Source: a virus
Virus record (IMG/VR): IMGVR_UViG_3300010883_000570
Span: 1-21,946 of that record
Length of the DNA: 21,946 nucleotides
Reading direction: 5' to 3' (one strand)
Of the stretch, positions 19,385 through 21,117 are shown piece by piece. A program made the position numbers and the translations under genes. The notes below the pieces were generated by a model. That model had not been told where the DNA came from. It saw only the letters and a list, made by a program, of their open reading frames with translations, and searched no databases. Position 1 is the stretch's first letter, and each line of letters starts with the position of its first letter.

Positions 19385-19669
19385 TTACAAGATACCTAGT
19401 ATCATAAATTCAGCTACTATTACATAAGACTTCTTATCAAGTTCAATTATATGCCCTTTTCCAGAAGGATCTATCATAACAGTATCACCAACTTTAACCC
19501 ATTTACATTCTGGGCCAACAGCTAGTGCTTCTAGTATATTTGTTTTGAGGGTTGCTTGTACAGACTCAGGTAGGATTATACCACTCTCTGTTTCTTCTTT
19601 TCTTGGATCTGGTAGTAAGACCCAATCCCTAGTTGGTTTAAATTTAATCTTTTTTGTTGCTTTTGTCAT
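19385..19669 (-). CDS. groES: GroES-like co-chaperonin
   Basis: A 94-residue protein of normal GroES length. It begins IKFKPTRDWVLLPDP, the beta-strand start of GroES (usual PLxDRVLV), then the mobile loop EETESGIILPESVQ, whose IIL triad is the GroEL-binding tip. Residues ~50-75 (LAVGPECKWVKVGDTVMIDP) match the Gly-Pro/VKVGD segment. It ends with YVIVAEFMILGIL, like the GroES C-terminal strand. No GroEL is encoded here, so it likely partners host GroEL, as T4 gp31 does, probably to fold the capsid protein. It is first in the late operon behind a strong promoter. Confidence 0.93.
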   Translation of the reverse strand: MTKATKKIKFKPTRDWVLLPDPRKEETESGIILPESVQATLKTNILEALAVGPECKWVKVGDTVMIDPSGKGHIIELDKKSYVIVAEFMILGIL

Positions 19670-19691: not shown

Positions 19692-19723
19692 CAAAGATAT
19701 AAAAACTTTTATTATAAATACAA
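19692..19723 (-). promoter_or_regulatory. Bacteroidetes-type promoter of the late operon
   Basis: Minus strand reads TTG, a 21-base spacer, then TATCTTTG, a full match to the Bacteroidetes TTG/TAnnTTTG pattern. The G of the box lies 23 bases before the GroES ATG, giving a short leader of about 17 bases. Confidence 0.75.
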
Positions 19724-19739: not shown

Positions 19740-19822
19740 TATTATTCCCCCTAGGAATTTTTATCTTTCAAGTTTGATTTCGCTCTAGCAGTGCTCCTCA
19801 TTTAGGGGACCCAGGGATAATA
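19740..19822. other. Structured non-coding segment A
   Basis: TATTATTCC (19740-19748) pairs with GGGATAATA (19814-19822) and, just inside, CCCTA (19749-19753) with TAGGG (19803-19807). The T:G pair in the outer stem is a wobble in a plus-strand RNA but a mismatch on the minus, which slightly favours plus. On the minus strand a run of seven T follows the outer stem, as in a terminator. Together with the next element it fills the divergent control region, where no credible gene is seen. Confidence 0.5.
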
Positions 19823-19837
19823 TAATCGATGTTAATT

Positions 19838-19987
19838 CACCGCACCTACTAATGTGCTTTCTATCCCAACTAGAGTTTATACATTACTCTTTTTGCAATT
19901 ACCGGAGAAAATCTCAGCTTTATTTAAGCCTACCAATCCGATGTCTTTTCCCTTTTTTGGTTACCGAGGGATGATAATATTGCGGTG
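19838..19987. other. Structured non-coding segment B
   Basis: CACCGCA (19838-19844) is complementary to TGCGGTG (19981-19987), enclosing 136 bases that hold further small stems (AGAGT/ACTCT, GAGA/TCTC, GCTT/AAGC, ACCAA/TTGGT). On the minus strand a TATATTTG promoter-like box abuts the outer end (19988-19995). A minus-strand RNA from there to segment A's T-run would be about 245 bases, but the start site would fall inside the closing stem. Strand and existence of an RNA are unproven. Confidence 0.4.
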
Positions 19988-19995
19988 CAAATATA
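19988..19995 (-). promoter_or_regulatory. Possible -7 box facing the structured segment
   Basis: TATATTTG on the minus strand matches TAnnTTTG, with no recognisable -33 TTG upstream. It would drive transcription through segments B and A. Confidence 0.25.
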
Positions 19996-20047
19996 TAAAC
20001 TTTATTTGGAATAAAAAAATAAATGGGAAAAAATTTTTAGAAAGTTA

Positions 20048-20058
20048 GTGAGAGCGTG
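20048..20058 (+). repeat. Repeated motif GTGAGAGCGTG, copy 1
   Basis: It starts 122 bases before the 140-aa gene's ATG, flanked by GTT and AAC that could close a loop. The identical 11 bases occur at 20646-20656, 121 bases before the next gene. It sits in a GC-rich patch that stands out from the AT-rich surroundings. Confidence 0.75.
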
Positions 20059-20084
20059 AACCACCTCAAAGCGTAACCCCTGCC

Positions 20085-20108
20085 GGGAATGCGGATTTGG
20101 CATTACCC
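20085..20108 (+). other. Hairpin in the leader of the 140-aa gene
   Basis: GGGAATGC pairs with GCATTACCC (one bulged A) around a seven-base loop. Nothing like a T-run follows. The region 20048-20110 is clearly GC-richer than the rest. A TTTG at 20096-20099 followed after 18 bases by TAGGTTTC (20118-20125) is a weak candidate promoter for the gene. Confidence 0.5.
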
Positions 20109-20169
20109 CCATTTTCGTAGGTTTCAGATAATACCTTTAAATTATCATAACCCATAAAAACAATTAAAA

Positions 20170-20592
20170 ATGGGAACAACAAAAAAGGTTGCGAAAACAA
20201 CACAAACTACTAGTCAATTACCTGAGGGAAACTTTGGTACATACAAGTCATCTGATGTAGACGATTTAATTAAATTAGTACCATCGGACAACTTGTTTCT
20301 AGATGGGAAAGGAAGTGAAAGTCCTTTTGATTTAGACACTACTACTGAGGTAGTTAACGAAGATATCGTTAATGTTATCAAGTGGAGTGATGGTTCAGGT
20401 AAAGAGAACTATCTATTTTTACAGGGTGTGAAGTGTATCAATACAGGACTAACAGATACATTCCCATTTAACCCTAATCAAGTAGAACAAAGACAACTTA
20501 CTAAGGTAGGTATGACTAATTTCATCATTACTAAAATGGTTGGTAGAGGTGATAAGAGAAAGAAAAGAAGTCAAAATGTAGAAATCAAGTAA
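20170..20592 (+). CDS. Hypothetical 140-aa protein, first gene of the right arm
   Basis: A 140-residue protein not recognised. The N-terminus is Thr/Gln-rich and basic (TTKKVAKTTQTTSQ), the centre acidic, and the C-terminus ends in a Lys/Arg patch (GRGDKRKKRSQNVEIK). Segment ENYLFLQGVKCINTGLTD may be a beta hairpin. A strong terminator follows within 7 bases of the stop, so it is probably a single-gene transcript, and copy 1 of the repeated motif lies 122 bases before its ATG. A small nucleic-acid-binding protein is possible from the basic ends; nothing proves it. Confidence 0.82.
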   Translation: MGTTKKVAKTTQTTSQLPEGNFGTYKSSDVDDLIKLVPSDNLFLDGKGSESPFDLDTTTEVVNEDIVNVIKWSDGSGKENYLFLQGVKCINTGLTDTFPFNPNQVEQRQLTKVGMTNFIITKMVGRGDKRKKRSQNVEIK

Positions 20593-20598
20593 AATATA

Positions 20599-20623
20599 GG
20601 AGAGAGAAATCTCTCCTTTTTTT
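20599..20623 (+). terminator. Rho-independent terminator
   Basis: GGAGAGA and TCTCTCC pair perfectly around a GAAA tetraloop, followed by seven T. It lies seven bases after the 140-aa gene's TAA. Confidence 0.92.
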
Positions 20624-20626
20624 CTG

Positions 20627-20673
20627 GAACGACAAACTGATATTCGTGAGAGCGTGTATCAGGTTGTTAGTTC
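20627..20673 (+). other. Large hairpin presenting the repeated motif in its loop
   Basis: CTGATA pairs with TATCAG around a 14-base loop that contains GTGAGAGCGTG (20646-20656). The stem extends outward past one A/G mismatch through GACAA/TTGTT to GAAC/GTTC. It begins just after the terminator. It may be a DNA or RNA recognition element for the next gene. Confidence 0.7.
20646..20656 (+). repeat. Repeated motif GTGAGAGCGTG, copy 2
   Basis: It starts 121 bases before the 116-aa gene's ATG and fills the loop of the hairpin at 20627-20673. No other sequence similarity of note is seen between the two upstream regions. Confidence 0.75.
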
Positions 20674-20766
20674 TATTTTTTAACCAAAATACAATGATGA
20701 TCAATGATCAACATTATAATATAACATAAACAACTAATCTAATTATCAACTAACACATTAAAAGAC

Positions 20767-21117
20767 ATGAAATCATACACAATAAAGATCTATCCTCATA
20801 AATATATGGATAGAGTTAAACAAGATCATTTTGCAGCAGATAACATAGCTTATGAAGTATCAAAAGTTATTAAACTTATGCTTAGAGCTACTGAAGTAGT
20901 TAAGTATCAAGATAACAGTACTAATGAAGGTTATGAGTATGAAATACATAATCCAGATGATATTAGAACTAAGATTGTAAGAACTGAGATAGAAACAGTA
21001 TTTCCTGAAGTATGTTTTAATCAATGTTGGATAGAATCTCAATCAATTCTTTCAGATGAAGAATCTAAGGAATTAGAAGATTTATTAAATACAGTAACAA
21101 TTCCATATGAAGATTAA
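20767..21117 (+). CDS. Hypothetical acidic 116-aa protein
   Basis: A 116-residue protein with an N-terminal beta-like segment (SYTIKIYPHKYMD), a helix around 25-40, two Cys near 90-95 (VCFNQCW) and an acidic C-terminal helix (SDEESKELEDLLN). No family recognised. The leader holds two tandem ATGATCA copies (20697-20710) and an ATAACATAAA element (20721-20730). A short frame MMINDQHYNIT ending in TAA lies in the leader (20694-20729) and could act as an upstream reading frame. Coding is supported by normal codon use and the regular spacing of small genes. Confidence 0.8.
   Translation: MKSYTIKIYPHKYMDRVKQDHFAADNIAYEVSKVIKLMLRATEVVKYQDNSTNEGYEYEIHNPDDIRTKIVRTEIETVFPEVCFNQCWIESQSILSDEESKELEDLLNTVTIPYED

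Follow-up and report, generated by a model that had tools for sequence, protein, structure and literature searches.

A Conserved 94-bp Element Preceding the Early Arm of crAss-like Phages, a Candidate Promoter for the Virion RNA Polymerase

In phage N4, early hairpin promoters serve the virion RNA polymerase, and phage T7 is an example of phages with transcript-primed origins. For the Thermus phage P23-45, whose virion RNA polymerase is of the same class as that of the crAss-like phages, the use of a conserved AT-rich promoter has been proposed, according to the accessible part of the report (PMC10770324). In the crAss-like phages themselves the virion RNA polymerase (vRNAP) drives the early and middle genes; as stated in the sections at hand of a review, early and middle transcription of phi14:2 is resistant to rifampicin, and the host enzyme likely drives the late genes (PMC10136315). 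The corresponding part of the crAss001 paper agrees on the role of the vRNAP in transcription of the early operon (PMC8375218). No description of a promoter of a crAss-like vRNAP, nor of the way in which it locates start sites, was met in the literature searched, although a motif published earlier may exist; the word "promoter" is absent from the available main text of the review (PMC10136315).

The window, i.e., the whole stretch of 21,946 nucleotides analysed here, is an IMG/VR record derived from a crAss-like phage, as indicated by Pfam (crassvirus capsid protein) and PHROG (terminase, portal, GroES), and constitutes a fragment of the phage genome. The left-arm genes are located on the minus strand and end with the GroES gene (19385–19669), and the right-arm genes occupy the plus strand from position 20170. 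The first two genes of the right, or early, arm taken from the ORF list, both on the plus strand, encode proteins of 140 aa (gene 1, 20170–20592) and 116 aa (gene 2, 20767–21117), for which Pfam and PHROG gave no known family; a scan for terminators placed an intrinsic terminator-like site directly 3' of gene 1 (20598–20623, plus strand). The starting point was an 11-mer, GTGAGAGCGTG, noticed in the initial annotation ahead of both genes. Its two exact copies are located on the plus strand, copy 1 at 20048–20058, 122 bases 5' of the ATG of gene 1 (20170), and copy 2 at 20646–20656, 121 bases before the ATG of gene 2 (20767), and the record contains no further copy. Among 4000 dinucleotide-shuffled pairs of the two leaders none shared an 11-mer with at least six G/C, and 88 shared any 11-mer at all. 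Both copies are present in a contig 99% identical to the window, which is too close to be informative. In the 114 locus files the exact 11-mer occurs 16 times in 11 files, several of which are overlapping copies of one contig, and each of three control patterns occurs 0 times; beyond the near-twin of the window, all exact 11-mers precede the first right-arm gene. Genome-wide, the core does not recur in excess in the marine genomes, with 48 matches, the leader-1 sites included, versus 46 in the reversed sequence.

Alignment of relatives indicates that copy 1 is one stretch of a longer conserved block, L1, a rigid 94-bp element that heads the right arm (20017–20110, plus strand). It is composed, in this order, of an A run and a T run (the A/T tract, 20028–20038), the core near TTTGTGARCGTGTGAACC (GTGAGMGYGTG-type), an ACCCC box (first C box, 20076–20080), and, close to the end of the block, a second C box (20105–20110), all on the plus strand and followed by gene 1. 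The suspicion that the repeat marks a cis-element shared by right-arm genes is therefore borne out for copy 1, which forms the core of an element that many crAss-like phages conserve at the right-arm head. Alignment A1 comprises 44 leaders of 94 bases with zero gaps; in it the A run followed by the T run is conserved, G34, A35, G38, and C61–C63 are invariant (the CCC of the first C box in 44 of 44, this box being present in named phages too), and C89 and C91 of the second C box are nearly so. Model R1 matches the window at 20022–20109 with an E value of 9e-14, the window sequence itself being among the 44 rows.

The relatives were collected from IMG/VR by a terminase search (the best 80 of 555) and by a GroES search (33 loci), with some contigs in both sets. 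Of the 56 distinct stretches that carry the neighbouring RNA described below, 46 yielded a leader 1, L077 being kept below the score cut; four stretches with enough sequence (L022, L028, L062, and L069) gave no leader 1 with the PWM, first seeded with 17 leaders mostly located by eye, and six had fewer than 100 bases left for it. R1 later recovered L1 in the record of L022, which the PWM had missed. Of the 46 leaders 45 are distinct, and 44 entered A1, the truncated L099 being left out. The scan with a strict L1 pattern matched 18 contigs. A second model, R2, was built after adding five named sequences, and A3 includes cr4_1, found by eye and missed by R1; since R1 and R2 were built from A1 and A3, they necessarily match the rows of these alignments.

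In the window, the marine relatives, phi14:2, cr6_1, and cr115_1, L1 lies where the early arm diverges from the left arm and points into it. From its core to the first right-arm ATG there are 78–162 bases, with a median of 98 (37 sequences), so that the nearly equal distance of the two copies from their start codons is not a rule among the relatives. The distance from the core to the left neighbour is 35–834 bases (45 sequences), and the narrow spacing on one side versus the variable one on the other shows that L1 travels with gene 1. At E ≤ 0.1 R1 matched 17 of 19 longer records, 16 of the 17 with a single strong site; the exception, G040, has two sites, the second of them partial (model positions 22–49).

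L1 is also present in named phages. Among 11 named records R1 matched those of the Flavobacterium phage FpV4 (E 1.1e-6), the gut phage cr6_1 (6.2e-6), and the Cellulophaga phage phi14:2 (2.0e-4), with a weak match in cr115_1 (0.16). All four matches lie where the two arms diverge and are directed away from the terminase arm; in phi14:2 L1, at positions 97948–98043 of the record, directly precedes g111, the first right-arm gene, and in FpV4 the first annotated gene on the L1 strand begins about 415 bases downstream. An L1-like arrangement was seen by eye at the junctions of cr4_1 and cr10_1, and at that of crAss001 without a clear core, with a T tract and C boxes near position 120–240 of the record. 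In the cr10_1 junction (L203, minus strand, about 7400–7270) two tandem copies of the core, TTGTGAGTGTAGAG and TTTGAGTGTAGAG, precede the C boxes. R2 was run on 14 named records, none of them used in its construction, and matched cr50_1 (1.6e-8), cr56_1 (1.4e-7), cr60_1 (2.6e-6), cr113_1 (1.0e-4), and DAC17 (3.8e-4), all five, as judged by strand, opposite to the terminase. Weaker matches were found in cr272_1 (0.006 and 0.12), both inside the early arm and away from its junction, and in cr10_1 (0.013). At E ≤ 1 six of the 14 records gave no match; crAss001, Carjivirus, jaberico, Dulem 42, and cr118_1 are without an R2 match. The R2 match in cr112_1 (0.007) was judged false because of its terminase orientation and terminator-like look, and the second matches in cr6_1 (0.37) and phi14:2 (0.60), together with that in cr130_1 (0.97), were taken as chance. 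BLAST of the leader with the intergenic DNA against the named phages returned nothing besides one match at chance level.

The location of L1 beside the minimum of the GC skew raises the question of whether it is all or part of a replication origin at the boundary of two replichores, in which the A/T tract would melt and an initiator would bind the core and the C boxes. In all four long genomes computed the minimum of the cumulative GC skew lies close to L1 (78, 76, 612, and 108 bases away), which makes an origin possible, either alone or primed from L1, and L1 occurs once per genome, gap-free and with an A/T tract. In addition, the accessible part of the review places the GC-skew inversion between the two replichores (PMC10136315), and the first gene past the junction of Carjivirus, a phage in which no L1 was found, is annotated as the RepL replication initiator. 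However, the switch of gene strand at the same place can alone cause the skew, L1 holds a narrow spacing towards the first ATG but none towards the left neighbour, and the cr272_1 sites, being within the early arm, fit a promoter better than an origin. Taken together, we consider an origin unlikely; a transcript-primed origin would possibly unite it with the promoter reading set out below.

Another question is whether the conserved part acts as DNA or as RNA. It could be a signal carried by the 5' leader of gene 1, serving for instance for recognition of the C boxes by a protein or for antitermination, with transcription starting at the core or upstream of it. Consistent with this, the C boxes lie between the core and the ATG in all L1 elements, terminators are located 3' of gene 1, and small hairpins are possible in some subgroups, as seen by eye. 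On the other hand, neither a conserved fold nor covariation was detected: RNAalifold predicted zero pairs on the 44 rows of A1, and in a 45-row version of L1 no pairs were predicted and no pair of columns stood out as Watson–Crick covarying. Single L1 leaders fold no better than shuffled sequences (mean z −0.35, n = 45), and the leader around copy 1 not much better (z −1.0). A hairpin common to all was rejected, as the small hairpins formed by the subgroups differ and none is shared, and the searches of the region with Rfam 15 and for tRNAs gave no match for L1. The same tool revealed strong covariation in the neighbouring RNA, hence the method works on such material. The hairpin pointed out around the repeat is consequently not a part of the conserved element; the repeat may still be an RNA-binding site, though structure is not conserved. 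The conserved A/T tract, which precedes the core at an equally rigid spacing, also speaks against an RNA signal, a reading to which we give a low probability, comparable to that of an origin. Being conserved as sequence at rigid spacing, L1 looks like a stretch of DNA contacted by a protein complex or a signal read in single-stranded RNA.

The neighbouring RNA, of about 250 nt, is encoded to the left of L1 on the minus strand (19746–19996) and has 56 distinct homologous stretches. In it, 25 of 48 predicted pairs show, in one sequence or more, changes of both partners that preserve the pairing, and the strand test favours the minus strand (312 G-U versus 55 A-C cells, as compared with 116 versus 97 for the plus strand). 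It has no match in Rfam 15, and 19 named crAss-like records gave none at E < 0.05. We regard it as a candidate new structured RNA, separate from L1, and possibly more novel than the L1 finding itself. As a side observation, a GOLLD RNA (Rfam RF02032, 212 bits, E 7e-59) is present on the crAss-like contig L105 (3054–3436, minus strand).

The 5' edge of the neighbouring RNA bears at a fixed place a left-facing box, TATATTTG (19988–19995, minus strand), of the type TAnnTTTG, which we take to be the consensus of the −7 box of Bacteroidota host promoters. This box is found on the left-facing side in 46 of 54 relatives. The GroES gene apparently has a host-type box of its own, TATCTTTG (19692–19699, minus strand, read off the sequence), so GroES and the neighbouring RNA may be separate transcription units. 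As L1 is located at the start of an operon, it might also be an ordinary host promoter read with a Bacteroidota sigma factor; nevertheless, TAnnTTTG occurs in just one of 45 right-facing L1 stretches, about the level of shuffled sequences (0.028 expected per sequence), as against 46 of 54 on the other strand, which makes a host promoter very improbable.

The explanation that we favour, with a chance that we put at about even, is that L1 is the promoter plus leader of the early arm in crAss-like phages, most likely read by the vRNAP. The polymerase, which enters the cell together with the phage DNA, would recognise L1 and start early-arm transcription there, the place of the transcript start being likewise proposed from the sequence; the C boxes, which follow the core, may be part of the RNA. 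This proposal is based on the host-type box being largely confined to the left-facing side, the early role of the vRNAP, a vRNAP homologue in a relative of the window, and the P23-45 precedent. The homologue, a 2276-aa protein with DFDID encoded by G033, matches the structure of the phi14:2 vRNAP (6vr4, E 7.5e-18) in a PDB search. Giant ORFs of 2276–4335 aa with D(F/Y)DID are present in the marine crAss-like contigs G029, G033, G035, and G036 and adjoin ORFs of about 1640–1840 aa. Pfam, PHROG, and a narrow motif all failed to match a vRNAP in the relatives, and it was the wider motif together with the PDB search that found it. Also phi14:2, itself a carrier of L1, has an annotated vRNAP, gp66. 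Several observations argue against a promoter: there is only about one L1 site per genome despite the length of the early arm, the GC-skew minimum lies as close to L1 as it would to an origin, copy 2 lacks most of L1, and crAss001, Carjivirus, jaberico, Dulem 42, and cr118_1, in which R2 gave no match, should need vRNAP promoters too. That L1 represents the first promoter class for the giant vRNAP family of Crassvirales and related Flavobacterium phages, marine and gut, and perhaps also a transcript-primed replication origin, seems to us a little short of an even chance. L1 offers one defined, testable sequence per genome, including those of the cultured phages phi14:2, FpV4, and DAC17. If this reading is true, promoter recognition by an RNA-interference-like polymerase becomes directly testable, and early operons could be annotated throughout this abundant order of gut phages.

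The status of copy 2 is different. It directly follows the terminator of gene 1 (20598–20623) and comprises the core only, with neither A/T tract nor C boxes, and among the relatives L113 alone has a second core that clearly compares with it; the part of the original suggestion that extended the shared element to gene 2 was not supported. Copy 2 is indeed embedded in a strong hairpin (20625–20675, plus strand; z −3.8 for the 101-nt stretch folded), where it forms an apical CGU-GAGA-GCG stem-loop plus flank and not an open loop as supposed initially. This hairpin, predicted by folding and followed by TATTTTTT, is a possible second terminator, not listed by the terminator scan. A coincidence or relic within a terminator-like hairpin, with no role of its own, is nearly as probable as not. 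The gene-2 leaders of many relatives contain a hairpin with the arm GTGAGTGTG paired to CACATTCAC and a T run after it, the best opposite-strand match to the core is also significant in several relatives, and a second core is absent or just partial in L007 and L011, the closest distinct relatives. Against coincidence speak the shuffled leader pairs, none of which in 4000 shared so G/C-rich an 11-mer, the second core of L113, GTGAGAGTGTGAACC, at the same place (E 0.003), the slightly greater likeness of own-genome pairs than of permuted ones (p 0.011), and the enrichment of the core over 36 leaders, with a combined p of 2e-22 that is confounded by hairpins. Leader 2 was testable in 36 of 45 sequences, and a core-like word reached p ≤ 0.01 in 14 of the 36, many of these words being hairpin arms before T runs. 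Copy 2 is thus at most a degenerate second site, which we weigh about equally with coincidence or relic; if a site, it is probably a weaker or decaying, core-only one between gene 1 and gene 2. The recurrent hairpin between gene 1 and gene 2 with the arms GTGAGTGTG and CACATTCAC was observed in L013, L044, L056, L060, L081, and L110, followed by a T run in several of them and with at least one compensatory change (L044); it is perhaps a conserved terminator.

Of the systems described, the P23-45 promoters are similar to L1 in being conserved sequences that precede the first-expressed genes, are unlike host promoters, and have a virion RNA polymerase of the two-barrel class as the proposed reader, the motif being common to phages with a virion polymerase of that class, according to the part of that report at hand (PMC10770324). 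However, P23-45 has many promoters, with starts mapped and ChIP-seq performed (PMC10770324, part available), while L1, a putative promoter recognised by its sequence, is present in about one copy per genome; compared with the P23-45 promoters as presented in the same part, the L1 block is longer, its core contains G/C, and it has C boxes. The Bacteroidota host promoter differs in that its box, at the same junction, faces left (46 of 54) and is absent from the right-facing L1 in all but one of 45 cases. L1 resembles the N4 promoters as a putative early promoter of a virion RNA polymerase, and copy 2 is, like them, located in a hairpin; unlike in N4, L1 has no conserved hairpin, that of copy 2 is not conserved, and the polymerase is of another class. 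With origins of the T7 type L1 would share an A/T tract beside a possible phage promoter, placed at the minimum of the GC skew.
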